64,000 nucleotides of DNA, taken from the NCBI RefSeq assembly GCF_007995245.1, contig NZ_VCBA01000001.1, positions 511,730-575,729 on the forward strand. The letters are read 5' to 3'. Shown here piece after piece: positions 30,258-44,420 of the stretch (position 1 is its first letter; each line of letters begins with the position of its first letter). The translations under genes were made by a program, and so were the position numbers. The notes beneath the pieces were generated by a model. The model saw nothing but the letters and a program-made list of their open reading frames with translations, made no database searches and was not told the origin of the DNA. The stretch is from Tateyamaria sp. syn59. GTDB taxonomy: Bacteria; Pseudomonadota; Alphaproteobacteria; Rhodobacterales; Rhodobacteraceae.

Positions 30258-31505
30258 TTAAACCGCCCCCGCAAGCGACAGTGCGCAGCCCGCGGCGGCC
30301 ATGACCGCCAAAACAGTGAGCAGCCCAAGTTTGAGGCGCAACATGAGATAAGCCGCCACGACTGTGAGCACGACAGCCCAGCCATTCAGCGTTGATATGT
30401 CGGGCAGCGGCAGGGCGAGGACGGTGCCGCTCTGGACGGTTCCAAAGATCACGTGGAGGGCGAACCACACTGACAGGTTCAGGATGACACCGACCACCGC
30501 AGCCGTGATTGCCGACAAGGCAGCCGACAGGCGGGGCCGCGCGGAAATGTGGTCGAGATAGGGACCGGCGGCGAAGATCCACAGAAAACACGGCACAAAC
30601 GTCACCCAGAGCGTCACCGCGCCCGCCGCGAGGGCCAATGCGACGCCGCCTTGCGCGTAGCCCGCCAGCAGCGCCACGAACTCGGTGACCAGGATCAGGG
30701 GGCCGGGCGTCGTCTCGGCCAGGCCCAGCGCGTCGATCATCTGGCCGGTGGTGATCCAGCCGTGATCCTGCACCACCTCTTGTGTCATGTAGGCCAGCAC
30801 CGCGTAGGCGCCGCCGAATGTGACGACGGCCAGCTTGGAAAAGAAGAGACCAATGTCGAGCAGGAACGCCTGCGCCGTCATCCAGAGGAAGGCGAGGGGG
30901 GCTGCCCATAGCGCTGCTAGCGTCAGCAAGGTGGGAAGGATGCGTGTCCGGGGTGCCGGTGGCGCGGGCGCTGCGCTGTCCGAGCTGCGCCATGCACCAA
31001 ACAGACCCGCAGCGAGGACCACCAGCGGAAAGGGCAGGCCCACCACGAACAGGGCAACGAATGCCGCACCTGCGAGCGCCCAGGCCGTGGGGCCCGTCAG
31101 TGCCTTCTGACCCAGCCGCAAAAGCGCTTGCAGGACCACGACAATCACGGCGGCCTTGACCCCCAAAAAGGCCGCCTGCACCAGCGGCACGTCCCCGAAC
31201 TGCACATAGGCCAGCGCCAGCGCGAGGATCACGAGCGCCCCAGGCATCACGAACAGGAGGCCCGCGAGCAGACCGCCCGCCACACCGCGCAGTCGCCAGC
31301 CTGCATAGGTGGCCAGTTGCATCGCCTCTGGCCCCGGCAAGAGCATGCAGAGCGACAGGGCGCGCAGGTATTGCTCTTCTGTCAGCCACTTCTCGCGGCT
31401 GACAAGCGCGTCGTGCATGAGCGCGATTTGCGCGGCCGGACCGCCAAAGGACAACAGGCCGATGCGGCCAAAGACACGGGTCATCCGGGACCAGTTCTGA
31501 ACCAT
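30258..31505 (-). CDS. chrA: Chromate transporter ChrA (two-domain)
   Basis: A 415-residue CHR-superfamily membrane protein that exports chromate. Both homologous halves are present: GLLSFGGPAAQIALMHDALV with E-Q-Y-L-R-A-L-S-L-C-M-L-L-P-G-P in the first, and VVTFGGAYAVLAYMTQEVV with GLAETTPGPLILVTEFVA in the second. About ten membrane helices are visible. The ATG overlaps the stop of the upstream rhodanese/ChrB gene (TGATG), so the two are coupled. Chromate specificity is inferred from the family and the ChrB-like neighbour. Confidence 0.92.
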   Translation of the reverse strand: MVQNWSRMTRVFGRIGLLSFGGPAAQIALMHDALVSREKWLTEEQYLRALSLCMLLPGPEAMQLATYAGWRLRGVAGGLLAGLLFVMPGALVILALALAYVQFGDVPLVQAAFLGVKAAVIVVVLQALLRLGQKALTGPTAWALAGAAFVALFVVGLPFPLVVLAAGLFGAWRSSDSAAPAPPAPRTRILPTLLTLAALWAAPLAFLWMTAQAFLLDIGLFFSKLAVVTFGGAYAVLAYMTQEVVQDHGWITTGQMIDALGLAETTPGPLILVTEFVALLAGYAQGGVALALAAGAVTLWVTFVPCFLWIFAAGPYLDHISARPRLSAALSAITAAVVGVILNLSVWFALHVIFGTVQSGTVLALPLPDISTLNGWAVVLTVVAAYLMLRLKLGLLTVLAVMAAAGCALSLAGAV

Positions 31506-32233
31506 CACGCGGCCTCCTGCCGTTGGGTGTGGCGGTGCGCGGCCCAGGCTGCGTCGAGAACAGGCAGGGCGGCATCCGCCAACCCTTCACCAGTTTCATG
31601 AAGATTGGACAACATGTCGAGCCAGTCGCCTCCCTGTGCGGTTGCGCGCTCCAGCGCGGCGACATGTGTGAGGAGGCTGCTGCAGGCCAGCCCGCGTTGG
31701 GACAACAACTCGGCCAGCGGCGCTGTGTCCGGCACCGCGTGCGCGCCGAAGCGTTCGGCCACGTCGTACACATGGTCTGCAGGCACCCATAGAATGCGCG
31801 CATCCGCGTCATACCAGCGGCGGATCACCCACGCGCAAAGTGCGGCGCGCCGGTCACGAGGCGCGGGACAGACCCAGACCGTACCCCATGGGGGCGCCTG
31901 GTCCAGCGCAAGCATGGGCCGGTCCGCCGCGCGCCAGGCTTGATTGCCACCGGTCAGCGCGCTGGCGTCAAATCCCATGGCCCGCAGATGGGCCGCAGCC
32001 CCGTGCGACAGCTTGAGCCCCTTTTGGCAAATGGTCACAATCGGGCGGTCCGTGTTCCAGGCGCGCGCTCTTTCGGAGATCTCTGTGTGCGGCACATGCT
32101 GGGACGTGGGGAGGCGATGCGGGTTGGCGGCGATGTCCTCGGGCAGACAGACGTCGATGAGCCGCGGCAGTTTGTGGGTTCCCAAGAGTGGCAACAGGTC
32201 ATCGGCGGAGATGGAAAGGCGAGCGTGGTCCAT
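31505..32233 (-). CDS. Rhodanese-ChrB fusion protein
   Basis: A 242-residue protein joining a rhodanese domain (about 1-110, R-L-I-D-V-C-L-P-E-D-I and the active-site loop I-C-Q-K-G-L-K-L-S with its Cys) to a ChrB C-terminal-type domain (A-W-V-I-R-R-W-Y-D-A-D-A-R-I-L-W-V-P and A-E-R-F-G-A-H-A-V-P-D). Classical ChrB is a chromate-sensing regulator with a different N-terminus. ATG 32233 is preferred over 32257 because AAAGGATG precedes it. Directly followed by chrA. Confidence 0.85.
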   Translation of the reverse strand: MDHARLSISADDLLPLLGTHKLPRLIDVCLPEDIAANPHRLPTSQHVPHTEISERARAWNTDRPIVTICQKGLKLSHGAAAHLRAMGFDASALTGGNQAWRAADRPMLALDQAPPWGTVWVCPAPRDRRAALCAWVIRRWYDADARILWVPADHVYDVAERFGAHAVPDTAPLAELLSQRGLACSSLLTHVAALERATAQGGDWLDMLSNLHETGEGLADAALPVLDAAWAAHRHTQRQEAA

Positions 32234-32411
32234 GATGGCATCCTTTGAGCACAACAAAAGGATGCGACATTTGGGCCAGCGGTGTGATCAAGCCTGATGG
32301 GGCAGTCGCGTCAGCCCCGCGGTGTGAGGTAGCGGGGATATGAGGCTCTCGTCAACCTTTTCGATTGGTGGCGCTTGGCTGTGAGAGGTTCTTTCAATTC
32401 TTGGCACATCG

Positions 32412-33452: not shown

Positions 33453-33806
33453 TTAGAAAGGATTTGCAGCTATGAACCATGCGGCGAGCGCCGCTTCTAT
33501 TCCGCCAAATAGAAGCACTTTTTTCAATGGTGGTTTGTCCAATATCAGAGAAATGACCCGACCCGCAGCGGCACCCACAAAGGCGAAACCGATCATCGCG
33601 TAGGCCAATGGCGCATCTATCCAAATCGCAGCGATGCCCGCCACGACAAAGAGCCCACCGACGGAAGCGCGCATCTCGCTCAGTCCCATTGTGCTGTCTG
33701 TGGGTGCCAGGTCGAGGGCAGAGGCCGTGTAGCGCGGGGCCAGAAAGCCGAAAAGCCCGAATGCGATGGTCAGCAGGGCGGTGAAGATGTTCAGGATGTC
33801 AATCAT
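33453..33806 (-). CDS. Four-span membrane protein (DUF4345-like)
   Basis: A 117-residue protein with four predicted membrane helices: FTALLTIAFGLFGFLAPRY, SVGGLFVVAGIAAIW, AYAMIGFAFVGAAAGRVISL and KVLLFGGIEAALAAWFIA. G-L-S-E-M-R-A-S-V-G-G-L and G-A-A-A-G-R-V-I-S resemble DUF4345 family proteins, which have no known role. It follows the acyltransferase gene by 37 bases on the same strand and may be the last gene of the mtoX-side transcript. Confidence 0.75.
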   Translation of the reverse strand: MIDILNIFTALLTIAFGLFGFLAPRYTASALDLAPTDSTMGLSEMRASVGGLFVVAGIAAIWIDAPLAYAMIGFAFVGAAAGRVISLILDKPPLKKVLLFGGIEAALAAWFIAANPF

Positions 33807-33843
33807 GCGCGGCAGTTAGCGCCGGTGGCGCGGCGCGGCAAGG

Positions 33844-34536
33844 TCAGAAGTGGTCGCGGAGGGGGCGGTTCAATCGCTCTTCCAGATCCCGGTTGAACTC
33901 GGACAGCTCCATCTGCGGATCGAGGTCATCCACCGTCTTTATGTCGACGGAGATATGACGCCGGCCTTTGCTGCGCCCGATGAAGGTCCAGAAATAGTCG
34001 TAGCGGGCGGGTTGAAAGCGGCCGAGCCCGTCGATGCGGAGCAGCAGGACAGGTCGGTCGGGCCGCTTCTGCAGGATGTCGCGCGCGCCTGAGAGGTGTG
34101 GGGCGATGATTTCAGGGCCGACCTGCCGCGTGTGTCCGGCTGGAAAGAGCAGCACGCTTTCGCCGCGGTCGAGTGCCGCCAGGATGCGCGCCATGCTGCG
34201 CTCTTTTTGCGCCTGACGCTTTTCGGCGGGCCATGATTTGGGGGAACTGACATGGATGGCGCGGGCCACGAACATCGGAAACCACTGCATCCAGTTGTGG
34301 TATTCGCGGTAGTGCACCACCGGTCGGATGCGCTGGGTCGTGTAAAGGATGGCCGCGATCAGTGGCCCGTCGAAGCGGCTGACATGGGTGGCGAGGATCA
34401 GTGTTCCGTTTGAATCCTGCAGCAGGTGTTTGCCTGCGCAACTGACATTGTAGAAGAGCGAAAAATAGGTGCGCACGATGGCGAAAAAGAAGTGCCGCAG
34501 CCATTTGCCCAGCGTGTTGTCAATGAACCGAACCAT
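33844..34536 (-). CDS. Lysophospholipid acyltransferase-like protein
   Basis: A PlsC/LPLAT-type acyltransferase: the catalytic H-x4-D motif is T-H-V-S-R-F-D-G-P, with F-P-A-G-H-T-R-Q-V-G as the block III-like segment. It would acylate a lysophospholipid or related acceptor at the inner membrane. The start is uncertain. ATG 34536 (M-V-R-F-I-D-N-T) gives 230 residues, but the frame upstream to about 34620 (E-F-W-Y-E-C-D-D-V-Q) looks coding and contains no ATG; a GTG at 34548 or an unusual CTG at 34620 could serve. An ATG at 34728 would overlap the upstream gene by 119 bases and is not believed. Downstream of the mtoX-membrane protein pair. Confidence 0.75.
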   Translation of the reverse strand: MVRFIDNTLGKWLRHFFFAIVRTYFSLFYNVSCAGKHLLQDSNGTLILATHVSRFDGPLIAAILYTTQRIRPVVHYREYHNWMQWFPMFVARAIHVSSPKSWPAEKRQAQKERSMARILAALDRGESVLLFPAGHTRQVGPEIIAPHLSGARDILQKRPDRPVLLLRIDGLGRFQPARYDYFWTFIGRSKGRRHISVDIKTVDDLDPQMELSEFNRDLEERLNRPLRDHF

Positions 34537-34609
34537 GTCTTGGGGCACCTGAACGTCGTCGCACTCGTACCAGAATTCGCGATCCGGTGACGTTTGGTCA
34601 ATCGGTTTT

Positions 34610-35263
34610 TCAGAATGCAGTCCAGAGGCCGATGCCGCCGACAAGGATGAGGCTGAGCGCCCAGACGAGTTCCAGATCGAACCAGCCACGCTTGAGGAAA
34701 TTAAGGCCGAGCCAGCGGTGGACGGCATAGGCGACGGCGCCCCCTGATCCCATCATCGCGGCGGTGTGCAGGACGGCAACGGCGAGAGCGAGGGCGGTTG
34801 TCGCCATGAGCGCCGAGGCAGCGCGGTGGCCTGCGTCGAGTTCTTCGATGGCGCAGAGGCCGAGATATATAGGCACCAGCATCAGGGCTGCACCGTGTGC
34901 GAGGGCCACTAGGAACGACCAGAGCGTCAGCTTGTGCGGCGGGATGCGGGCGAGGAAGCGAGGGTGTTTGCGGGTGATGGCGAGGTAAAGGCCCATGCCG
35001 ATGACCAGAATGCCTGCGCCGATGCGGATCTGGCTTTCGAAGTCGATGAGCAGGGTCATCATAGAAAAGGGGAGCAGGATGCCGAGCATCGCTGCAAAAT
35101 GGCCCAAAGATAGCGCCCCAAGCGCGGGCCAAAGCGCGCTGCGACGACGCTCGAACAGGGCCGAGGAGACGGCGAGGGGCCAGCCCATGCCGGGGTTCAG
35201 ACCGTGGTAGAGGCCGGAGAGGATCACGGCGAGCCAGAGGCCCGCCGCGGTTGTCATGTCCAT
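34610..35263 (-). CDS. Polytopic membrane protein coupled to mtoX, unknown function
   Basis: A 217-residue protein with six predicted helices. The first ends in L-Y-H-G-L-N-P-G-M-G-W-P, the second contains L-S-L-G-H-F-A-A-M-L-G; paired His-containing helices of this kind occur in HupE/UreH/NicO metal-transport families, so a metal or small-solute transporter is possible, but I cannot place it in a family. Its ATG overlaps the stop of the mtoX-family gene (TGATG), so it is co-translated with it and likely supports methanethiol oxidation, for example by metal supply or export of a product. Confidence 0.75.
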   Translation of the reverse strand: MDMTTAAGLWLAVILSGLYHGLNPGMGWPLAVSSALFERRRSALWPALGALSLGHFAAMLGILLPFSMMTLLIDFESQIRIGAGILVIGMGLYLAITRKHPRFLARIPPHKLTLWSFLVALAHGAALMLVPIYLGLCAIEELDAGHRAASALMATTALALAVAVLHTAAMMGSGGAVAYAVHRWLGLNFLKRGWFDLELVWALSLILVGGIGLWTAF

Positions 35264-36666
35264 CAGCCCACCGACGGGTAGCAGAAGCTGTCGGTGGAAC
35301 AGTCGCCCCCCTCAAGCCGGATCTGGTGGCTGCGGTAGCCTCCGGGGAAGTCGATCCAGAAGTCGGGATCGAGGGCAAAGCCGCCATCCTCGCCCACGCG
35401 CGCCATGACCATCGCCGCCCCCCGGTCACCGGGGTAGAACTGGTCGTCCCAGGTGGAATAGAGCGAGTTGGTCCAGTAGACCCGCTTGCCGTCGCGGCTG
35501 ACCTCGACCATCTGCGGGCCGTAGCCGAACGCCTTGCCATTGGGGTGCTTGTGGTTGGCAACGATGCCGCCGATCTCGACCTTGCCGGCGAGCACCGGGT
35601 TCATCGGGTCGGATACGTCATATTGGTGCATCTCGCCCAGTCCCCAGCACGCGACGTAGAGGTACTTGTCATCGAGGCTGAGGTCGATGTCGGTCACCAG
35701 CGGCGGCACGGCGCCGAAGCCTTTGAGCAACTCGGGCAGATCGTCGGCATCCGCGGGCACGGGGTCAATGGTGATCGTCTTCTTGGCCTGCCACTCGCCA
35801 TCTTCGTCGCGCCACCAGGTGAAGATCGCGCCCTGCAGGTTGGTGGTGTCAACCACCACACCGCAGAAGCCGTATTCCTTGACCGGATCGTGGGCGGGCC
35901 GGATCTCCAGCGCCATCTGGTGATGCGCGCCAAGATCAATCGACTTCGTCACCTTGCGTCCACGCAGATCCCAGAAATGGATCGTGTGGCCGTATTTGTT
36001 CGACAGTAAATCCTCAGGCACCACGCCGTTTTCAAACTGCGGCGGCAGGCCCCACTCGGAACTCACCATGTAGTCACGCGGCAGGTTCCACCAGAAATCG
36101 TAGTGCTTGTCCTGAATGCCCCGGTCCATCTCGTAACGGCCAAGGATATCGAAGCTCTCGCAGTCCATGATGAAGATGCCGGGCGGGCCGTCGGTGCCAT
36201 CCTCGCCACCGCCACCCAGGGTCGAGACATAGATGCCTTCGGGGCCGCAATGGATTGTGTGGGGGCGGGAGTAACCCGTCTTGGCCATCAACTCTTCGGG
36301 TTCGATGATCTTGTGAATCTTGGCGTTCAGCGGCTCTTTCACATCAATGATGTAGATGCGCGAGGACCGGATGCCGGGAATGATGAGGTAGCGACGTTCC
36401 AGGAAGGCGTGGCCGGTGAGCGGCGACAGGGCCGAAGAGCAGGCGTTCCAGCCGAAATGGTGAAATTCGTCGCCGAGGTTCGGCACATAGAGTTCATGGA
36501 CGATCTGGCTGTAGGTCTTGCTTTCCGGGTCCACGTCCACAACGGCCAGACCGTCGGGTTTCGTGCCATCCGGGCTGAGCATCAGCGTAAAGGCCAGCTT
36601 TTCCACCGGCGCGTGGATCGCGTCATTGGGCGAGGGGTAAAATGTGGGGTCAGGTCTTAAATTCAT
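35263..36666 (-). CDS. mtoX: Selenium-binding protein 56 / methanethiol oxidase (MtoX) family
   Basis: The 467-residue beta-propeller protein matches the SELENBP1/MtoX family throughout: V-D-V-D-P-E-S-K-T-Y-S-Q-I-V-H, N-L-G-D-E-F-H-H-F-G-W-N-A-C-S-S, S-S-R-I-Y-I-I-D-V, Y-D-F-W-W, S-S-E-W-G-L-P, L-Y-V-A-C-W-G-L-G-E-M-H-Q-Y-D-V-S-D-P and the C-terminal E-G-G-D-C-S-T-D. MtoX is a copper enzyme turning methanethiol into formaldehyde, sulfide and peroxide. No signal peptide is seen, so it is predicted cytoplasmic, unlike the periplasmic Hyphomicrobium enzyme. AGGGAGGAAGCC precedes ATG 36666. With dmdA next door, methanethiol is the obvious substrate. Confidence 0.88.
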   Translation of the reverse strand: MNLRPDPTFYPSPNDAIHAPVEKLAFTLMLSPDGTKPDGLAVVDVDPESKTYSQIVHELYVPNLGDEFHHFGWNACSSALSPLTGHAFLERRYLIIPGIRSSRIYIIDVKEPLNAKIHKIIEPEELMAKTGYSRPHTIHCGPEGIYVSTLGGGGEDGTDGPPGIFIMDCESFDILGRYEMDRGIQDKHYDFWWNLPRDYMVSSEWGLPPQFENGVVPEDLLSNKYGHTIHFWDLRGRKVTKSIDLGAHHQMALEIRPAHDPVKEYGFCGVVVDTTNLQGAIFTWWRDEDGEWQAKKTITIDPVPADADDLPELLKGFGAVPPLVTDIDLSLDDKYLYVACWGLGEMHQYDVSDPMNPVLAGKVEIGGIVANHKHPNGKAFGYGPQMVEVSRDGKRVYWTNSLYSTWDDQFYPGDRGAAMVMARVGEDGGFALDPDFWIDFPGGYRSHQIRLEGGDCSTDSFCYPSVG

Positions 36667-36739
36667 GGCTTCCTCCCTGAAGCATATGTCTGTCGGTGCC
36701 CGGCCCCTCGGCTGCCTTTGCGACTTTTTCGGGGAGGGA

Positions 36740-37495
36740 TCAGGCGGTCTTGTGCTCCTTTTCTGCGGCCCGGTTTTCATGGGACTTGACGACAGAGTGC
36801 GCCAAGAGCCGCGTGTAGGCTTCTAGTTTGATGAGTGCCGCGTCGAGTTTCGGCGCATCCTGCGCTTCAACCGCGTTCGCGATGTCCGTGTGTAGTGCCA
36901 CGATCTCTTCCCGCGAGCGGGCGGTGAAGGTGATCATGTTCATGAGGGGCTGCATGGCCTCGACCGCGCCTGCAAGCTGGTAGCTGAGCACCTTGTTGCC
37001 CGCACCATCGACAAGCGCGCGGTGAAAGGTGACATCGGAGGCGCAGAAGGCTTCATCGGTGAGACCCGGTTGACCCTGGCGGTGGATTTCAGCCCGCATG
37101 GTGGCGAGTTGATCGGGTGTGCGCCGTTCTGCTGACAAAGGCGCGCAGGCCCGTTCGAGCGCGTAGCGTGCTTCGCAGGCGACGTCGAAGCTGACCGCGT
37201 TCATAGATAAAAGCAGGGTCGATGTCGTCACCTGCTGGGCATAGGCATCTTCAAACCGCAACCGGTTGACGAAAGCACCGCCCGATGCGCCGCGTTGCGT
37301 GCGGATCAGCGATTGCGCTGCGAGTCGCTTGAGCGCCTCGCGGACCGTCGGGCGGGAGACATCAAAATGGTCGGCAAGTTCGGATTCAGATGGCAACCGC
37401 TGATCGACAATCAGATCACCCGCGATGATCGCATCCCGGATTGCCTTGGCAATCTGGGCCGACAGGTCAACCGTGCTGTCGGGATCAATTCTCAT
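36740..37495 (-). CDS. GntR (FadR-type) transcriptional regulator
   Basis: A 251-residue regulator with an N-terminal winged helix (L-P-S-E-S-E-L-A-D-H-F-D-V-S-R-P-T-V-R-E-A-L-K-R-L) and an all-helical FCD ligand domain with the metal-site pattern D-V-T-F-H-R-A-L and H-T-D-I-A-N-A-V. It is divergent from the DUF2182-dmdA run and reads into mtoX 73 bases on, so it probably controls both sides; two tandem TTGT-N3-ACAT boxes lie in the gap. From memory, a GntR gene is also next to dmdA in Ruegeria pomeroyi. Ligand unknown; DMSP or an acryloyl/propionyl metabolite is a guess. Confidence 0.9.
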   Translation of the reverse strand: MRIDPDSTVDLSAQIAKAIRDAIIAGDLIVDQRLPSESELADHFDVSRPTVREALKRLAAQSLIRTQRGASGGAFVNRLRFEDAYAQQVTTSTLLLSMNAVSFDVACEARYALERACAPLSAERRTPDQLATMRAEIHRQGQPGLTDEAFCASDVTFHRALVDGAGNKVLSYQLAGAVEAMQPLMNMITFTARSREEIVALHTDIANAVEAQDAPKLDAALIKLEAYTRLLAHSVVKSHENRAAEKEHKTA

Positions 37496-37511
37496 GCGCG
37501 CACTTTTTCAT

Positions 37512-37537
37512 TTGTCATACATTTTATTGTCTGACAT
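37512..37537. promoter_or_regulatory. Tandem putative operator boxes for the GntR regulator
   Basis: TTGTCATACAT (37512-37522) and TTGTCTGACAT (37527-37537) are direct repeats 15 bases apart, each close to the FadR-type consensus T-N-G-T-N3-A-C-N-A. They lie 17 bases from the gntR start and 43 from the DUF2182 start. Confidence 0.55.
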
Positions 37538-37579
37538 TTAATCTGGCAAGCGTTGAGTCGTGTGCGTCGGGGAGGACAC

Positions 37580-38368
37580 ATGCCGCATCTCGTCAGATCA
37601 ACACTCTGGCTGGGGTTCTTTGGGGCCATACTGGTGGCGTGGTGGGTCATGTATGCCATGTCGGTCGACATGGATGTGGACCTGATCGGGCGGCCGGGCG
37701 AAATGGGCGCGCGCATGGCCGCCATGGACCCGCGCATGCCGATGTACATGCCGATGGCGAATTTCGGACCGCTTTTCGCGATGTGGGCGATCATGATGGC
37801 GGCGATGATGTTGCCGACGCTGGTGCCCACCTTGCGCAGCTATGAAGACCTGATGGTCAGTGCCAACGGCACGCGGGCCGGATGGTTGGGCGTGCTGGCG
37901 GGCTACTCGATCGTCTGGGTCGCCTTTGCGGCCCTGATCACAGGCGTACAGCTTGCGCTGCTCTTTGGCGGTGTGATCGACATGCTCGGCATATCCAAGA
38001 CCACCACATTTGCAGGCGCGCTTCTCATCGCCGTTGGTTTGTTTCAATTCACCCGAGCGAAGGAAATCTGCCATGGCGTCTGCCATAGCCCGATGACGTA
38101 TTTTCTTGGACACTGGCGCACCGGCTTTGCCGGTGGGCTGCGGATGGGGCTCGGCCTCGGCGCGTTTTGCGTGGGCTGCTGCTGGGGCTTCATGGCGCTT
38201 GGATTTGTCGGCGGCGTAATGAGCCTGCTCTGGATGGGCCTCGCCACGCTTTTCATGGTGATCGAAAAGCTGCCGCAGATCGGGCATGTTGTCACCAAAC
38301 CCATGGGGGTCCTGCTGACCCTTGCAGGGCTGGCCGTGCTGGCCTGGCCCTTTGTGAACGGAGGATAG
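37580..38368 (+). CDS. DUF2182 Met/Cys-rich integral membrane protein
   Basis: A 262-residue membrane protein of DUF2182 (predicted metal-binding). About seven helices. Residues 42-77 are strikingly Met-rich (M-D-P-R-M-P-M-Y-M-P-M and W-A-I-M-M-A-A-M-M-L-P), and Cys/His occur as E-I-C-H-G-V-C-H (C164, C168) and F-C-V-G-C-C-W (C197, C200, C201). Such Met and Cys ladders are typical of Cu(I) handling. ATG 37580 follows GGGGAGGAC. It is paired with a DUF1326 gene one base on, then DinB and dmdA; copper delivery to the neighbouring MtoX is my inference. Confidence 0.88.
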   Translation: MPHLVRSTLWLGFFGAILVAWWVMYAMSVDMDVDLIGRPGEMGARMAAMDPRMPMYMPMANFGPLFAMWAIMMAAMMLPTLVPTLRSYEDLMVSANGTRAGWLGVLAGYSIVWVAFAALITGVQLALLFGGVIDMLGISKTTTFAGALLIAVGLFQFTRAKEICHGVCHSPMTYFLGHWRTGFAGGLRMGLGLGAFCVGCCWGFMALGFVGGVMSLLWMGLATLFMVIEKLPQIGHVVTKPMGVLLTLAGLAVLAWPFVNGG

Positions 38369-38369
38369 A

Positions 38370-39077
38370 ATGGCCGTAAAGAAACGCCCCGACGCCGACA
38401 AGCTGCCGGTCAGCCAGCGCATCGACAGCCGCATGCCGAACCCCGGTCGCCGCCAGATGTCGCCCACCGAATGGGCCATCAAGGGCGAGCTGTTCCTCAA
38501 CTGCTCGTGCGAGGTGTTCTGCCCCTGCGTCGTCTCGCTGGGCGCACACCCGCCCACCGAAGGGCACTGCCACGCCTGGATGGCCATCGCCATCGACGAG
38601 GGGCACTACGAGGGCGAGGACCTGTCGGGCCTGAACGTGGGCCTGATGGTCGACATTCCGGGCCGTATGGGCGAGGGCGGCTGGCGCGTTGCGGCCTACG
38701 TGGACGAGCGGGCATCAGGCAAGGCTTACAACGGACTGCTGCAAATCTTCTCGGGCGCTGCCGGGGGCACAACAGGTCTCTTCACGATGCTGGTGAGCGA
38801 CATCGTCGGGGCCGAGCGGGAAAAGGTCGAGATCGTGCGCGAGGGCAAGAAGCGCGGACTATACATCGGGCGCAAGATCCAGGGCGAGATCGAGATGATC
38901 GACGGCAAGTCACCCGATCACCCGGTGATGATCTCGAACTCCAAATACTGGATGGGTCCGGACATCATCGCGGCGCGCGGCGTGAAATCCAAGGTGCGCG
39001 ACTATGGCCGCATCTGGGATTTTGGCGGCAAATCGGCCGAGATCTGCCCCATCGACTGGAAAGGCCCCAAGCCGTGA
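38370..39077 (+). CDS. DUF1326 Cys-rich protein
   Basis: A 235-residue soluble protein with the DUF1326 motif L-N-C-S-C-E-V-F-C-P-C (Cys 45, 47, 51, 53) after a polar N-terminus, then a beta-rich domain (H-C-H-A-W-M-A-I-A-I-D, Y-N-G-L-L-Q-I-F-S-G-A-A-G-G). No signal peptide. DUF1326 commonly sits next to DUF2182; no activity is established. Four closely spaced Cys could bind Cu(I) or zinc. The ATG lies inside the GAGGATAGA end of the DUF2182 gene, and its stop overlaps the next start (GTGA). Confidence 0.88.
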   Translation: MAVKKRPDADKLPVSQRIDSRMPNPGRRQMSPTEWAIKGELFLNCSCEVFCPCVVSLGAHPPTEGHCHAWMAIAIDEGHYEGEDLSGLNVGLMVDIPGRMGEGGWRVAAYVDERASGKAYNGLLQIFSGAAGGTTGLFTMLVSDIVGAEREKVEIVREGKKRGLYIGRKIQGEIEMIDGKSPDHPVMISNSKYWMGPDIIAARGVKSKVRDYGRIWDFGGKSAEICPIDWKGPKP

Positions 39078-39583
39078 TCGAGGCGGGTTATGCACGCACA
39101 ATGGCCCGTTACAACGCCTGGCAGAACCGCCAGTTGACGGAGATTCTGACCGGCGTGCCAGACGACGAGCTACGCAAGGACCGTGGCGCATTCTTTGGCT
39201 CAATCATGGAGACCTTGAACCACATCCTGTGGGGCGACACGATGTGGATGAGCCGGTTCAACTCGGACATTTCGCCCCCCTTGATCCCGTCCGACCAACA
39301 TAGGGAATTCACGCCCACCTTCGCGGTCTGGAGTGCCGAACGCTTCCGCATGGACGGGGCGATCCGACTTTGGGCCGACAGCCTCGATACCGTGGCGCTG
39401 AAAGGTCAACTGACGTGGTATTCCGGCATGACCAAGCGCGACCTCAGCGAACCGCTTGAGACCTGTGTGGTCCATATGTTCAACCACCAGACCCACCACA
39501 GGGGTCAGGTTCACGCCATGATGACGGCTGCCGGTCTGCCTGCGCCCGTCACTGATATCGTATTCATGCCAAAGGACGAGTGA
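39074..39583 (+). CDS. DinB-like metal-dependent protein
   Basis: A 169-residue four-helix protein of the DinB/YfiT superfamily. The three metal-binding His are visible: N-H-I-L-W-G-D near residue 54 and F-N-H-Q-T-H-H-R-G-Q near residues 139-144. DinB-like enzymes include thiol S-transferases that use bacillithiol, mycothiol or glutathione, so a role in handling methanethiol or formaldehyde is conceivable here but unproven. GTG start overlaps the DUF1326 stop, and its TGA overlaps the dmdA ATG. Confidence 0.86.
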   Translation: MIEAGYARTMARYNAWQNRQLTEILTGVPDDELRKDRGAFFGSIMETLNHILWGDTMWMSRFNSDISPPLIPSDQHREFTPTFAVWSAERFRMDGAIRLWADSLDTVALKGQLTWYSGMTKRDLSEPLETCVVHMFNHQTHHRGQVHAMMTAAGLPAPVTDIVFMPKDE

Positions 39584-40686
39584 TGGCCGTTATCTCCCCA
39601 TCGCGCCGCCTGCGCCGCACGCCGTTTTCGGACGGGGTCGAGGCGGCAGGCGTCAAAGCCTATACCGTGTACAACCGGATGCTGTTGCCCACGGTCTTTG
39701 AAAGTGTCGAGGCGGACTACCGCCATCTCAAGGACCATGTGCAGGTCTGGGACGTGTCCGTCGAACGCCAGGTCGAGTTGCGGGGGCCCGACGCGGGCCG
39801 CCTGATGCAGATGCTCACCCCGCGGGACCTGCGCCGGATGCTGCCGGGCCAGTGCTATTACGTGCCCATCGTTGATGAGACGGGCGGGATGCTGAACGAT
39901 CCTGTCGCCGTGAAGCTGAGCGAGGACCGCTGGTGGATCTCGATTGCCGACAGCGATTTGCTGTTGTGGGTCAAGGGCATTGCGAACGGCTATCGGCTGG
40001 ACGTGCTGGTCGACGAACCCGACGTGTCGCCGTTGGCCATTCAGGGGCCAAAGGCGGACGATCTGGTCGAGCGTGTCTTTGGTGAACGCGTCCGGGACAT
40101 CCGGTTCTTCCGCTTCGACATGTTCCAGTTCGAGGGGCACGACCTCGCCATCGCGCGGTCGGGATACTCCAAGCAGGGCGGGTTCGAGATCTATGTGCCG
40201 GACAGCGCGATCGGCATGCCGCTGTGGGATGCACTTTTTGATGCGGGTGATGACCTGCAGGTGCGCGCCGGTTGTCCCAACGGGATCGAGCGGATCGAGG
40301 CGGGGCTTTTGTCCTATGGCAACGACATGACCGACGACAACACACCTCATGAATGCGGGCTGGGCCGGTTTTGCGACACGCAGACGGCCATCGGCTGTAT
40401 CGGGCGCGACGCGCTCTTGCGTGTGTCGAAGGAAGGGCCGGTGCAACAGATCCGCGCCATCTCCATCCATGGCGAGCCTGTGCCGTCCTGCGACCGGCCC
40501 TGGCCATTGCTTGCCGGTGGCAAGCGCGTTGGGCAGGTAACCTCCGCCGCGTGGTCGCCCGACTTCAAGACCAACGTGGCCATCGGTATGGTGCGTATGA
40601 CTCACTGGGATCCGGGCACTGAGTTGGAGGTTGAGACCCTGGACGGCATGCGCCGGGCGACGGTGCAGGAGGCGTTCTGGTTGTGA
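39583..40686 (+). CDS. dmdA: Dimethylsulfoniopropionate demethylase DmdA
   Basis: DmdA, a GcvT-fold enzyme, moves a methyl group of DMSP to tetrahydrofolate, giving methylmercaptopropionate and 5-methyl-THF. The 367-residue protein agrees closely with the Ruegeria pomeroyi enzyme as I remember it: P-S-R-R-x-R-R-T-P-F-S at the start, G-V-E-A-A-G-V-K-x-Y-T-V-Y-N-x-M-L-L-P, HVQVWDV, QCYYVP, GGMLNDPVAVKL, VRDIRFFR, YSKQGGFEIYV, GCPNGIERIEAGLLSYGNDM and ECGLGRFC. These exceed general GcvT similarity. The ATG overlaps the DinB stop. acuI follows, as in R. pomeroyi. dmdB, dmdC and dmdD are not in the window. Confidence 0.95.
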   Translation: MAVISPSRRLRRTPFSDGVEAAGVKAYTVYNRMLLPTVFESVEADYRHLKDHVQVWDVSVERQVELRGPDAGRLMQMLTPRDLRRMLPGQCYYVPIVDETGGMLNDPVAVKLSEDRWWISIADSDLLLWVKGIANGYRLDVLVDEPDVSPLAIQGPKADDLVERVFGERVRDIRFFRFDMFQFEGHDLAIARSGYSKQGGFEIYVPDSAIGMPLWDALFDAGDDLQVRAGCPNGIERIEAGLLSYGNDMTDDNTPHECGLGRFCDTQTAIGCIGRDALLRVSKEGPVQQIRAISIHGEPVPSCDRPWPLLAGGKRVGQVTSAAWSPDFKTNVAIGMVRMTHWDPGTELEVETLDGMRRATVQEAFWL

Positions 40687-40693
40687 CGTCGGA

Positions 40694-40745
40694 CCGGGGC
40701 GCTGCCCCGGACCCCGGGATATTTTTAGCAAGAGGAAGCAGGGGA
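40694..40745. repeat. Hairpin-plus-tail intergenic repeat, copy 2
   Basis: Hairpin CCGGGGC (40694-40700)/GCCCCGG (40704-40710) followed by ACCCCGGGATATTTTTAGC and AAGAGGAAGCAG. Same plan as 4534-4590. Between dmdA and acuI it could act as a partial terminator lowering acuI expression. Confidence 0.6.
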
Positions 40746-40771
40746 TGATCCCTGCCGAAATGGAGAGCGAT

Positions 40772-41758
40772 ATGTTCAATGCACTGGTGGTCAATAAAGA
40801 TGAAGAAAGCGGGAAGACATCCGCTGCGGTGACCGAACTGTCGCTAGATGACCTGCCGGAGGCCGAGGTGACGGTGGCCGTCGAGTATTCGACGGTGAAC
40901 TACAAGGACGGGCTGTGCATCGGGCCTGGTGGCGGTTTGGTGCGCAAGTATCCGCATGTGCCGGGGATCGATTTTGCGGGCACGGTCGAGACGTCCGACG
41001 ACGACCGCTACAAGCCGGGTGACAAGGTCGTGCTGACCGGCTGGCGCGTTGGTGAAGCGCATTGGGGTGGCTATGCGCAGAAGGCGCGTGTGAAGGCAGA
41101 TTGGCTGGTGCCACTGCCCGACGGTCTCGACACGCGTCAAGCAATGGCCGTGGGCACCGCAGGGTTCACCGCGATGCTGGCCGTGATGGCGCTGGAAGAT
41201 CACGGGATCAAGCCGGGGCCGGTCCTTGTCACTGGGGCCGCCGGGGGCGTCGGGTCGGTCGCGACCGCAATCCTTGCCAACCTTGGACATAAAGTCGCCG
41301 GTGTCACCGGGCGGCCCGAAACGGCAGAATACCTGACCAGCCTTGGCGCCACCCAGATCGTTGCACGCGAAGAGCTCAACGAGACAGTGAAACGCCCGCT
41401 CGAATCCGAGACCTGGGGCGGCTGCGTCGATGCGGTTGGTGGCGCGATGCTGGCGCGCGTGCTGGGTCAGATGGAATACGGTGCGTCCGTTGCCGCCGTG
41501 GGTCTTGCTGGTGGGGCGGGGCTGCCTGCAACCGTCATTCCGTTCCTGCTGCGCGGTGTGAACCTGCTGGGCATCGACAGTGTGATGCAGCCCTATGACA
41601 ACCGGGTGCGCGCCTGGCAGCGGATTGCCAAGGACCTGCCCATGGACAAGCTTGAGGCGATGGTCCAGCCCGCAACTCTGTCGGATCTGTCGCAGCTGGG
41701 TGCAGACATCCTCAAGGGTCAGGTCAAAGGCCGCGTTGTCGTGGACGTCAACGCCTGA
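40772..41758 (+). CDS. acuI: Acryloyl-CoA reductase AcuI
   Basis: AcuI, an NADPH-dependent medium-chain reductase, turns toxic acryloyl-CoA into propionyl-CoA in DMSP and acrylate breakdown. The 328-residue protein begins with F-N-A-L-V-V-N-K-D and has STVNYKDGL, P-H-V-P-G-I-D-F-A-G-T-V, GTAGFTAMLAVMAL and the Rossmann loop V-T-G-A-A-G-G-V-G-S-V-A. It lacks the Zn-binding Cys of alcohol dehydrogenases. The pairing with dmdA supports the call. ATG 40772 follows TGGAGAGCGAT. Confidence 0.94.
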   Translation: MFNALVVNKDEESGKTSAAVTELSLDDLPEAEVTVAVEYSTVNYKDGLCIGPGGGLVRKYPHVPGIDFAGTVETSDDDRYKPGDKVVLTGWRVGEAHWGGYAQKARVKADWLVPLPDGLDTRQAMAVGTAGFTAMLAVMALEDHGIKPGPVLVTGAAGGVGSVATAILANLGHKVAGVTGRPETAEYLTSLGATQIVAREELNETVKRPLESETWGGCVDAVGGAMLARVLGQMEYGASVAAVGLAGGAGLPATVIPFLLRGVNLLGIDSVMQPYDNRVRAWQRIAKDLPMDKLEAMVQPATLSDLSQLGADILKGQVKGRVVVDVNA

Positions 41759-41769
41759 TCGGTCTACAC

Positions 41770-41797
41770 GGGTCTCCGATAATGCATTCGGAGACCC
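41770..41797 (+). promoter_or_regulatory. Perfect hairpin overlapping the HIT gene ribosome site
   Basis: GGGTCTCCGA (41770-41779) and TCGGAGACCC (41788-41797) form a 10-bp stem over TAATGCAT. The right arm contains GGAGA, the ribosome site of ATG 41800, so folding would hide it; it could also end the acuI message. Confidence 0.55.
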
Positions 41798-41799
41798 GC

Positions 41800-42216
41800 A
41801 TGACCGCCTATGACGACAGCAATATTTTCGCTCAGATCCTGCGTGGCGAGATCCCGTCTTTCAAGGTTTACGAAGACGATGACACACTGTGCTTCATGGA
41901 CATCATGCCGCGCACGGACGGGCATTGCCTGGTGATCCCGAAAACGCCGTGCCGCAATGTGCTGGATGCGAGCGACGCGCAGCTGGCGGCGGTGATGTCG
42001 ACGGTCAAGAAGGTGGCGAATGCAGCCAAGGCGGCCTTTGACGCCGACGGCATCACGCTGCAGCAGTTCAACGAAACGGCAGGCGGGCAAGAGGTGTTTC
42101 ACCTGCATTTCCACATCCACCCGCGCCATGCGGGTGTGTCCATGCGTCCAGCCGGAACGATGGGCGATATGGAGGTGATCAAGGGCCACGCCGAAAAGAT
42201 CAGCGCGGCCCTGTAG
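41800..42216 (+). CDS. HIT family nucleotide-binding protein
   Basis: A 138-residue histidine-triad protein: Y-D-D-S-N-I-F-A-Q-I-L-R-G-E-I-P-S start, L-C-F-M-D-I-M-P, H-C-L-V-I-P-K, F-N-E-T-A-G-G-Q-E-V-F-H-L-H-F-H-I-H-P-R with the triad. These enzymes hydrolyse purine phosphoramidates or dinucleoside phosphates. It starts 42 bases after acuI with a strong hairpin over its ribosome site, and an upstream ATG at 41782 inside the hairpin is an alternative. A terminator follows at once. Confidence 0.93.
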   Translation: MTAYDDSNIFAQILRGEIPSFKVYEDDDTLCFMDIMPRTDGHCLVIPKTPCRNVLDASDAQLAAVMSTVKKVANAAKAAFDADGITLQQFNETAGGQEVFHLHFHIHPRHAGVSMRPAGTMGDMEVIKGHAEKISAAL

Positions 42217-42245
42217 GGTGCGCATTCATTGCGCACCTCTTTTTT
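42217..42245 (+). terminator. Rho-independent terminator after the HIT gene
   Basis: GGTGCGCA (42217-42224)/TGCGCACC (42230-42237) over TTCAT, then TCTTTTTT. Immediately after the HIT stop; ends the dmdA-acuI-HIT transcript. Confidence 0.85.
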
Positions 42246-42281: not shown

Positions 42282-44123
42282 TCATTCAGCAGGCTGCCCC
42301 ACCACATCGTCCGCCTTGGCGCGGCGGCTGTCATTGAACAGCGCCTTGGCCAGCGACACCGCCATCAGCACCATGATGAAGGTGAAGGGCAGGGCGCCCA
42401 CGATCATCGCGTCCTGAAGCGGGGCGAGGGCGTCGGCGTTGTTCGGATCAATAGCGCCCGCGATCAGCAGGCTGGCGATCACACCGGTCAGGATCAGGCC
42501 CCAGATGACACGGTGCCGGATACCGGTTTCCTGCGCGCCGCCCGACATGATCGTGTTCATTACCAGGATGCCCGAATCTGCCGATGTGACGAGGAATGTC
42601 ATGATCAGCACCACGCACATCAGGATCACCGCGCCCAGCAGCCATTCCGGTAGGATCATCGCCAGCGAGACGAACAGCTTGTTGGTGTTGGATGCCGCGA
42701 TGATCGCCCCATCAGCCACGCCTTGCAACTCGTTGTTAACTGCCGTGCCGCCCAGAATAGTCAGCCAAGCAAAGCACACCAGAGACGGAGCAACGACGCA
42801 GCCCAAGATGAACTCGCGCACCGTGCGGCCTTTGGAGATACGCGCAAGGAACAGGCCCACGAAAGGCGAGAACGCGATCCACCAGGCCCAGTAAAACGTG
42901 GTCCAGCCCGACTGCCAGCCGAACAGACGGCCTTGCGTACCCGCGTCGTAGGCTGCCGCCTGAACGGACGGATCGAGCGCTGCGGCATCGCCTTCGAGGC
43001 CAGCTACGAAACCGTCATAGCTGCCCCAGGCATTCGTCGCGCCGGAATACAGCGCACCTGCGACCGGCTCGGCCTCGGGCGGTAGGGTCGCCGTGAACGC
43101 CTCTTGTGACAGCGGGCTGTAGGCCTCGAAGCTGAGCGGGATGAAGTTCCAGATGTAGTCGGCAAGCGCCGTGCCATAGGTGGTCAACGCAAAGAGGAAT
43201 GAGCCGAAAACAATGAACGTCAGCAGGAGCAGCATCGACAGCACCAGGTTCAGGTTCGACAGGTATTTGATCCCGCGCCCGACACCGGACACAGCCGACA
43301 GGATCGACATGCCCATGATGATGCTGAGCGCCGCGATCAGCCCGACGGTGGACGGCTTCGGTGCAGCACCATCGACAGCATCGCCCATCAACCACTCCAT
43401 CCCCGTGACGTTATAGACGCCATCGACGAACTGGCTCACGCCGTAGCCGATGGTGACGGCCACGCCGAGGATCGTGGCCACGACGCCCAGCACATCGACG
43501 ATGTGCCCTAGAAACCCGTTGGCAAAGCGTCCGAGAAGCGGGGTCAGCGCCGACCGGATCGTCAAAGGCATGTCGCGGGTGTAAGCATAATAGGCCAGGC
43601 TCAGCCCGGTGATCACGTAGATCGCCCAGGCGTGAAATCCGAAATGCAGCAGCGAGTAGCGGAACGCGGATTGCACCGCCTCGGCACTGTTGGGCGTGGC
43701 GTCCTGCGCCACGGTGATCGGGTTGGACCCCCACAGCCCCACGGGTTCAGCGGTGGCAAAAACCATGAGGCCCACGCCCAGACCAGCGCCGAACATCATG
43801 GCGAACCAGGAAAACGTCGTGAATTCGGTTTCGGTGTCCGGCCCGCCCAGCTTGCGCTTGCCGATGGGCAGGGCGGCTAGAACGAACAGAAAGAATGCAA
43901 AAAAGCCCACCGAAATGATATAGAATGTGTTGAAGTCCTGCAGCGTCGCCCAGTTCCAGGCGTCGAGTGTCTGGGTCGCAGTGACGGGCCACAGGATTGC
44001 CCACAACACCAGCGCCACCATCGTGACCTTGGATATCAGCGCGATGGGCAGGCTATGTCCCTCGTAAAAACCGGAGTCCTGAGTGTTGATCTCAAGATCC
44101 GTAAAAGGTTCTTTCAATGCCAT
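42282..44123 (-). CDS. BCCT family betaine/choline/DMSP-type transporter 1
   Basis: A 613-residue twelve-helix secondary transporter. The BCCT signature appears as G-W-T-T-F-Y-W-A-W-W-I-A-F-S-P-F-V-G-L-F, followed by ARISKGRTVREF; the earlier F-S-W-F-A-M-M-F-G-A-G-L-G-V-G-L is the conserved glycine stretch of helix 3. There is a larger insert around residues 370-450 (G-A-T-N-A-W-G-S-Y-D-G-F). BCCT proteins import quaternary ammonium or sulfonium zwitterions; the dmdA location suggests DMSP or glycine betaine. ATG 44123 is the first codon of a normal N-terminus. Divergent from a second BCCT gene. Confidence 0.93.
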   Translation of the reverse strand: MALKEPFTDLEINTQDSGFYEGHSLPIALISKVTMVALVLWAILWPVTATQTLDAWNWATLQDFNTFYIISVGFFAFFLFVLAALPIGKRKLGGPDTETEFTTFSWFAMMFGAGLGVGLMVFATAEPVGLWGSNPITVAQDATPNSAEAVQSAFRYSLLHFGFHAWAIYVITGLSLAYYAYTRDMPLTIRSALTPLLGRFANGFLGHIVDVLGVVATILGVAVTIGYGVSQFVDGVYNVTGMEWLMGDAVDGAAPKPSTVGLIAALSIIMGMSILSAVSGVGRGIKYLSNLNLVLSMLLLLTFIVFGSFLFALTTYGTALADYIWNFIPLSFEAYSPLSQEAFTATLPPEAEPVAGALYSGATNAWGSYDGFVAGLEGDAAALDPSVQAAAYDAGTQGRLFGWQSGWTTFYWAWWIAFSPFVGLFLARISKGRTVREFILGCVVAPSLVCFAWLTILGGTAVNNELQGVADGAIIAASNTNKLFVSLAMILPEWLLGAVILMCVVLIMTFLVTSADSGILVMNTIMSGGAQETGIRHRVIWGLILTGVIASLLIAGAIDPNNADALAPLQDAMIVGALPFTFIMVLMAVSLAKALFNDSRRAKADDVVGQPAE

Positions 44124-44420
44124 TTGACTGGCTCCCTGTTTTTGTTTGATCCGGCGTCTGTCTGACCGGTCATGTCGGGGCGTCGGTTGCGTGGGTTTGC
44201 ACGCTGGCCTCCGGTCAACGCATCTGAGTGCGTTCAATCGTTCAAGGGTGGCACGGTTCCGCGCGAAAACTGGTGATTCTGCGACAGCGCGCCGCCCGCA
44301 TTTGACGTTTTTTGTCGGTCATTTGGCAAAATAGCGGAAGAATCGCGAAAAATTGAGACAAAATTTCCGAATGACCGCCCGTCAGCGGCACGAAAACTGT
44401 GCGCTTGGGGGCACAATCTT

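Follow-up and report, generated by a model that had tools for sequence, protein, structure and literature searches.

Why should a gene resembling those of methanethiol-consuming oxidases stand back to back with genes for the demethylation of dimethylsulfoniopropionate (DMSP)? The question is raised by a stretch of 64,000 nucleotides, here called the window, from contig 1 of Tateyamaria sp. syn59, a member of the Rhodobacteraceae (NZ_VCBA01000001.1, positions 511,730 to 575,729), which forms part of a 4.57 Mb genome with a completeness rated at 100%. Leftward from position 37495 run gntR, a gene of the SBP56 family and a gene for a membrane protein of 217 amino acids; rightward from 37580, divergent from the gntR side, run PpoB2 (DUF2182), DUF1326, DinB, dmdA, acuI and a HIT gene, an arrangement that is seen again in other genomes. 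What is conserved is a pair of modules, joined in few lineages: a GntR gene divergent from PpoB2-DUF1326-(DinB)-dmdA-acuI, and an SBP56 oxidase of the cluster-1 type together with its membrane protein. The explanation which we consider fairly probable is that a methanethiol-disposal module was added here to a GntR-controlled DMSP operon, the oxidase having been captured under the regulator of dmdA. The dmdA-acuI operon, the cluster-1 oxidases and PpoB2 are each already known individually; the published accounts are cited below from those passages that bear on these genes.

The locus and its genes

The features of the locus are as follows.

34610-35263, minus strand: undescribed membrane protein of 217 amino acids, constant partner of the cluster-1 type SBP56, with no Pfam or NCBIfam match
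35263-36666, minus strand: SBP56-family protein of 467 amino acids, predicted cluster-1 type methanethiol oxidase (PF05694, 572 bits, cut-off 34)
36740-37495, minus strand: GntR-family regulator with FCD domain (PF00392 and PF07729), first gene of the leftward transcript
37512-37522: operator-like copy 1, TTGTCATACAT, a motif kept upstream of GntR genes
37527-37537: operator-like copy 2, TTGTCTGACAT, 15 bases from copy 1
37521-37549, minus strand: promoter-like -35/-10 pair for gntR-SBP56, from a consensus scan only, overlapping the operator-like copies
37580-38368, plus strand: PpoB2/DUF2182 membrane protein (PF09948, Pfam name Copper chaperone, 199.6 bits, cut-off 28.7), start of the rightward transcript
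38370-39077, plus strand: DUF1326 protein with a CxCx3CxC motif (PF07040, 166.9 bits)
39074-39583, plus strand: DinB-family protein, putative metal-dependent thiol transferase (PF05163, 81 bits)
39580-40686, plus strand: dmdA, DMSP demethylase (NF009133 equivalog, 696.3 bits, cut-off 410)
40772-41758, plus strand: acuI, acryloyl-coenzyme A (CoA) reductase (TIGR02823, YhdH/AcuI subfamily, 445.5 bits, cut-off 297)
41782-42216, plus strand: HIT-domain gene, possibly the last of the transcript (PF01230, 96.8 bits)
42216-42238, plus strand: terminator-like hairpin with a T run after the HIT gene, from a consensus scan only
from 33844: acyltransferase open reading frame

An earlier note on this DNA had placed such a gene run at 33844-42216, and the run is real and in the layout described there, except that acuI, which it counted in a run of genes that overlap or nearly touch, lies behind a gap of 85 bases holding a hairpin-like repeat and then a T-rich stretch; the same interval also includes the acyltransferase reading frame and the HIT gene, which the note did not name. 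The other junctions are tight. The stop codon of SBP56 overlaps the start of the membrane-protein gene by one base (TGATG), in agreement with the co-translation that had been proposed, PpoB2 and DUF1326 are 1 base apart, and the gene pairs DUF1326/DinB and DinB/dmdA overlap. The dmdA call is borne out by its equivalog score, while acuI passes the subfamily model but falls narrowly below the cut-off of the AcuI equivalog (NF051456, 420.9 bits against 440). The DinB protein scores 21.4 bits on the mycothiol S-transferase (MST) model, under the cut-off of 27. The nearest named relative among those fetched is Tateyamaria omphalii (L002), whose SBP56 protein is 97% identical and whose 14 queried neighbour genes stand in the same order as in the window.

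The oxidase and its membrane partner

The earlier assignment of the oxidase to an MtoX/SELENBP1 family was right as to SBP56 and too narrow as to MtoX, for the protein scores 115.5 bits on the MtoX equivalog NF052453, where the cut-off is 650. Its cysteine motifs are GWNACS at 72, HTIHC at 136 and GGDCST at 453; those published for cluster 1 are GWNACS, HT(V/I)HC and GGDCS/T, and the cluster-2 motif TCQSPYM described in the same source is absent from the protein (PMC10936201). On these motifs it is a predicted cluster-1 type methanethiol oxidase, outside the classical MtoX clade. Consumption of methanethiol has been demonstrated for two cluster-1 enzymes, RdMTO and RlMTO, with a yield of sulfane sulfur above that of H2S (PMC10936201). 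The likeness of the window protein to these two is one of shared motifs rather than of measured identity, and the membrane partner and the linkage to dmdA are what the present locus adds to them. The classical mtoX-SCO1-mauG operon of Hyphomicrobium and of Ruegeria pomeroyi (SPOA0269-0271) has in common with it the SBP56 family and the conserved histidines, and the published enzyme has likewise been linked to DMSP use (PMC5739008). The window protein differs from it in belonging to another clade, in lacking TCQSPYM, and in having a GntR instead of an IclR regulator and an undescribed membrane partner; neither SCO1 nor MauG was found among the neighbour genes identified in 33453-42216.

The three motif cysteines are invariant in 83 of 83 alignment rows outside the loci L193-L212, and His69, His70, His139 and His447 are kept in 82 or 83 of these window-type rows. 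The same four histidines appear in all 21 rows from L193-L212, which belong mostly to another SBP56 subtype. From the order of the motifs, they may be the counterparts of the copper histidines of the Hyphomicrobium enzyme (PMC5739008). The closest solved structure is PDB 2ECE (E 6.7e-165). A hydropathy scan found no hydrophobic segment in the protein, which is probably cytoplasmic, since it is without a signal-like segment.

A membrane protein lies directly downstream of SBP56, on the same strand, in all 81 loci compared that have the window's type of SBP56, the matched ends being separated by 16 bases at the median; these loci are that of the window and 80 on named contigs of Alpha- and Gammaproteobacteria, the best of at least 590 and hence close relatives by choice. 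The 58 partner sequences aligned have a mean column identity of 70%, and the AlphaFold2 model has a mean predicted local distance difference test (pLDDT) score of 77. No Pfam or NCBIfam family matched the 217-residue protein and no recognisable fold relative was found; NicO and DsbD_2/CcdA were the membrane families weighed, by sequence-profile or fold match. The protein was never met without SBP56 in 273 loci, a weak test because most of these loci were fetched around SBP56 or other genes. As far as searched, this constant partner of a cluster-1 type oxidase is new: none was apparent by title or abstract among the matches listed from the open-licence PubMed Central literature, a set that omits most subscription papers.

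The other SBP56 subtype keeps different company. Among the 20 loci L193-L212, fetched from 26 places scoring above 600 bits, its partners are a CoA-binding protein (16), a 2Fe-2S ferredoxin (13) and a rhodanese (5). The two SBP56 groups of the tree described below were set by locus number, so that the 21 rows of L193-L212 include a window-type row from L205 and the divergent L211, and it is in L205 and L211 that the membrane protein is also present. Locus L205 (genome G186) holds both subtypes about 3 kb apart, each with its own kind of partner genes nearby, and in the tree the SBP56 of L211 falls among those of the window's type. In L194, L200, L206 and L208 the other subtype is clustered with ferredoxin, CoA-binding and rhodanese genes, to which some of the clusters add a GcvT-like gene, an acyl-CoA synthetase and an enoyl-CoA hydratase; the GcvT-like gene scores 378 bits in L194 and 374 bits in L206, just below the DmdA cut-off of 410. 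It is possible that clusters of this sort carry a methylated sulfur compound all the way to sulfane sulfur by themselves.

Linkage of the oxidase with dmdA and its regulator

In a sample of 198 family genomes from as many genera, dmdA was found in 84 genomes, at 92 loci. SBP56 is present in 50 of these 84 as against 18 of the 114 genomes without dmdA (Fisher 2e-10). Where the two genes are neighbours, they stand in three gene orders: divergent in the window, in L002-L006 and L021 of Tateyamaria, in L060 and in L090; after acuI in L014; and directly after dmdA in L139, with 63 bases between the matches. When linkage is mapped as a label onto a tree of 103 rows, it has to change six times, and well-supported branches force two of these changes. 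The tree leaves out rows shorter than 400 amino acids, and L060 was dropped from it for its interrupted SBP56; at L060:10001-11398 (Ruegeria sp. EL01) the gene beside dmdA reads as two pieces, through decay or sequencing error. An oxidase pair captured beside dmdA in more than one gene order is, as far as searched, a new observation.

The regulator gene between the two transcripts offers a means by which they could be joined. Of 74 loci, 64 contain the palindrome TGTCNNACA in the 150 bases that precede gntR, against 21 of 1480 windows drawn at random from those loci; the 74 count the window's own site twice (L001 and L213), leaving 73 distinct. The consensus is ATTTGTC(A/T)GACATTTA. Among relaxed sites a spacing of 15 bases is the commonest (38 pairs), and 50 of the 73 distinct windows hold at least two. 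The operator-like pair at the present locus, TTGTC-NN-ACAT twice at a distance of 15 bases, lies over the shared promoter region; apart from its two copies the 64 kb contain no TTGTCNNACAT, none of 100 shuffles gave two, and the genome has the extended pattern at a single place. GntR goes with dmdA, though not strictly: 50 of the 63 loci with both dmdA and PpoB2 have it, against 9 of 31 loci that have the PpoB2-DUF1326 pair without dmdA (Fisher 3e-6, uncorrected for descent). Of the latter, none of the 22 that lack GntR shows the motif upstream of PpoB2, and five of the nine with GntR have the motif.

Within the literature searched, the conserved double site of GntR is new. In R. pomeroyi DSS-3, DMSP and acrylate induce the dmdA-acuI operon (PMC3338564), and the passages of that paper which mention regulators name none for it. 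In the open-licence PubMed Central set, with most subscription papers outside it, dmdA and GntR occur together in three papers, in one of which the GntR is listed after ectoine transporter genes. The R. pomeroyi operon and the present locus have dmdA followed by acuI on one strand in common; here PpoB2, DUF1326 and DinB precede them and the divergent GntR and SBP56 pair lies behind.

With the fairly probable capture of the oxidase under the dmdA regulator, the rightward transcript would serve the demethylation of DMSP and, through acuI, the reduction of toxic acryloyl-CoA from the lyase branch, a DMSP-lyase cupin being encoded elsewhere in the genome (G000:C7:136290-136763; PF16867, 128.9 bits). 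The leftward transcript would supply the regulator, the cluster-1 type SBP56 and its dedicated membrane partner, and the oxidase would act on the methanethiol that later steps of demethylation yield, which its published homologues convert to sulfane sulfur. The effector of GntR would be expected to raise both transcripts in parallel, because the operator-like pair to which GntR may bind lies over the promoter region that they share. Our best guess at the effector is acrylate or its CoA ester, since the R. pomeroyi operon is induced by acrylate.

Several observations weigh against this explanation. The co-occurrence of dmdA and SBP56 is uncorrected for phylogeny or lifestyle, and the label changes forced on the tree are only two. 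Forty-seven of the 50 genomes with both genes have no dmdA within 12 kb of SBP56 on one contig, although contig ends may hide some cases; likewise, dmdA stands beside SBP56 in 8 of 80 loci and is absent from the flank in 72, some of them on short contigs. The motif is missing from 10 of the 74 GntR upstream windows and GntR occurs in 9 of the 31 dmdA-less loci, so that the association of the regulator with dmdA is not absolute. There is no operator copy before SBP56 itself, even with one mismatch allowed, and its control would therefore depend on read-through from gntR. On the route to methanethiol, the best DmdB candidate of the genome scores 769.6, under the cut-off of 822.

The rarity of the linkage may also be taken to mean that the oxidase pair landed beside dmdA in an ancestor of Tateyamaria without functional meaning. 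Linkage was seen in 3 of 50 genomes, Tateyamaria accounts for six of the eight linked loci, and one Tateyamaria (L008) has SBP56 with no dmdA within 10 kb. However, a single landing sits poorly with three gene orders whose rows lie apart on the tree and force at least two label changes. In addition, about 0.3 linked genomes would be expected at random positions, a calculation that assumes independence, and even the fairer count of two other genomes, the window having been chosen for the feature, exceeds this figure. An accidental neighbourhood is accordingly judged unlikely. The earlier note had read the two transcripts as one DMSP/methanethiol unit. In favour of this speak the single regulator gene with its conserved operator-like motif, the enrichment of SBP56 among dmdA genomes, the methanethiol consumption of proteins with cluster-1 motifs (PMC10936201) and the recurrence beside dmdA in different orders; yet the linkage is the exception, and the conservation among relatives on which the note had staked its reading is largely lacking on the oxidase side outside Tateyamaria.

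PpoB2, DUF1326 and the acuI step

The company of PpoB2 and DUF1326 is of another kind. Of the 92 dmdA loci, 64 have both genes no more than 5 kb away, and a profile search that excluded the window's own locus found PpoB2 near dmdA in 63 of 91. These 63 loci have GntR in 50 cases and acuI in 55, compared with four and five, respectively, in the other 28. Away from dmdA, 59 DUF1326 places were fetched, four of them without an adjacent PpoB2. Where DUF1326 comes before PpoB2 (23 family places and 14 of 20 fetched from phylum-wide matches), the next 4.2 kb downstream on the same strand hold no dmdA, acuI, DinB or SBP56. In the order PpoB2>DUF1326, acuI is still present in 22 of the 31 dmdA-less loci, counted at 400 bits or more on AcuI within 5.5 kb; an alternative count gives 32 places, 20 of them with an AcuI-like match within 4.2 kb downstream. 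One of the 22 (L244) carries a broken dmdA, and absence is weak evidence in L175, L218, L227, L237 and L246, which lie at or near a contig edge. In two further dmdA-less pairs the very next gene is for a crotonyl-CoA carboxylase/reductase (554 and 545 bits, cut-off 379). The steadiest company of the pair is thus an acryloyl-CoA or crotonyl-CoA reductase, with dmdA present or absent in between. PpoB2 and DUF1326 as regular companions of acuI and dmdA are new as far as searched: no open-licence PubMed Central paper was found with the words DUF2182 or DUF1326, most subscription papers being outside that set.

Two side observations concern these loci. In L244 (genome G014; also G014:C51), dmdA and SBP56 are both interrupted, while PpoB2, DUF1326 and acuI score as full-length. 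In L102, L111 and L218 an acyl-CoA synthetase of the PRK08162 subfamily comes right after DUF1326, followed by dmdA in the first two and by the contig end in L218.

The earlier note had counted accessory genes, DUF2182 and DUF1326 among them, to its DMSP/methanethiol unit. That these two are accessories of the oxidase in general is not supported: among dmdA genomes SBP56 is found in 38 of 64 with the pair at dmdA and in 12 of 20 without it, and the pair stays with acuI where dmdA is missing. The same figures bear on a more specific proposal, in which PpoB2 and DUF1326 would work as a pair across membrane and cytosol to load SBP56 with Cu(I), in place of the SCO1 and MauG proteins that the classical mtoX operon encodes. 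PpoB2 of Marinomonas mediterranea, which shares with the window protein its Pfam family by name and its nature as a membrane protein, was in 2010 reported as the first of its group to be given a role, the transfer of copper to tyrosinase (PMC2855505); there it forms an operon with the tyrosinase, and here it stands with DUF1326 and acuI/dmdA. MtoX has been reported as copper-dependent (PMC5739008), and both sides of the present locus are probably under one regulator. Among the homologues nearest to the window's proteins, rather than across whole families, Met68/72/76/77 and Cys164/168/197/200/201 of PpoB2 are invariant in the 79 collected and Cys45/47/51/53/67 of DUF1326 in the 84 collected, as would be expected for soft-metal sites. 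Two loci suggest a tie with SBP56 apart from dmdA: at L193:5647-8266 a divergent PpoB2-like gene (PF09948, 90.6 bits) comes after SBP56 and its ferredoxin gene, with neither dmdA nor DUF1326 in the locus, and on L251, a 3.6-kb contig of G160, PpoB2 and an opposite-strand GntR stand together with an SBP56 fragment at the edge, in a genome with no dmdA match at E 1e-120. Against these, PpoB2 was met among the 80 SBP56 loci only in the eight that also have dmdA, and PMC10936201, in the passages cited here, treats copper for the cluster-2 enzyme only. Loading of the oxidase with copper by the pair is possible, with no support from co-occurrence, and on the whole we hold such a copper relay to be improbable.

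The persistence of acuI, or in two loci of crotonyl-CoA reductase, beside the pair invites another explanation, in which PpoB2, DUF1326 and DinB would act with acuI as a thiol- or metal-based defence against acryloyl-CoA and acrylate, the oxidase being incidental. The five invariant cysteines of DUF1326 fit such a role, relatives of DinB include thiol S-transferases (the MST match lying below threshold), and AcuI has been linked to acrylate resistance (PMC3338564). However, DinB was not found downstream in 30 of the 63 dmdA loci with the pair, the thiol chemistry is putative, and the methionine-rich sites of PpoB2 suggest metal rather than electrophiles. We regard this defence as doubtful, if less so than delivery of copper to SBP56. 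In the favoured account of a DMSP operon with an added methanethiol-disposal module, PpoB2 and DUF1326 may handle Cu(I), another soft metal or thiols, and this role would belong with the acuI step, not with the oxidase.

A bolder version can be put forward as a long shot. In it, PpoB2 and DUF1326 would be a new Cu(I)-handling pair of acryloyl-CoA/DMSP catabolism; in Tateyamaria, one GntR repressor with an acrylate-type effector would jointly switch methanethiol production, its copper-dependent oxidation by a cytoplasmic enzyme and the supply of copper; and the membrane partner would be the missing transport or electron-transfer half of the cluster-1 oxidase.

The surroundings of the locus may be noted as well. 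Genes of the class-V aminotransferase, photolyase and cfa families flank 34, 34 and 35 of the 91 dmdA loci and 8, 6 and 6 of the first 20 dmdA-less ones, and sspB, fumC and chrA flank 28, 23 and 22 of the 91 and 7, 6 and 5 of the 20, each family being named from one representative. Just past the operon of the window, divergent BCCT-family transporters (42282-44126, minus strand; 44565-46259, plus strand) are candidates for the uptake of DMSP or betaine, and at 30258-32257, on the minus strand, a chromate-transporter-family gene overlaps a rhodanese-domain gene by a few bases.

The fate of DMSP in marine bacteria, along the methanethiol route or the route to dimethyl sulfide, is influenced by dmdA and acuI, and the divergent GntR with its conserved double site is a candidate regulator for the operon's response to acrylate. 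The membrane partner, constant in all 81 loci with the window's type of SBP56, is a concrete lead on how a cluster-1 type oxidase may be supplied or drained. With PpoB2 and DUF1326, two copper-protein-like genes are seen to be common beside the DMSP and acrylate genes of related bacteria.

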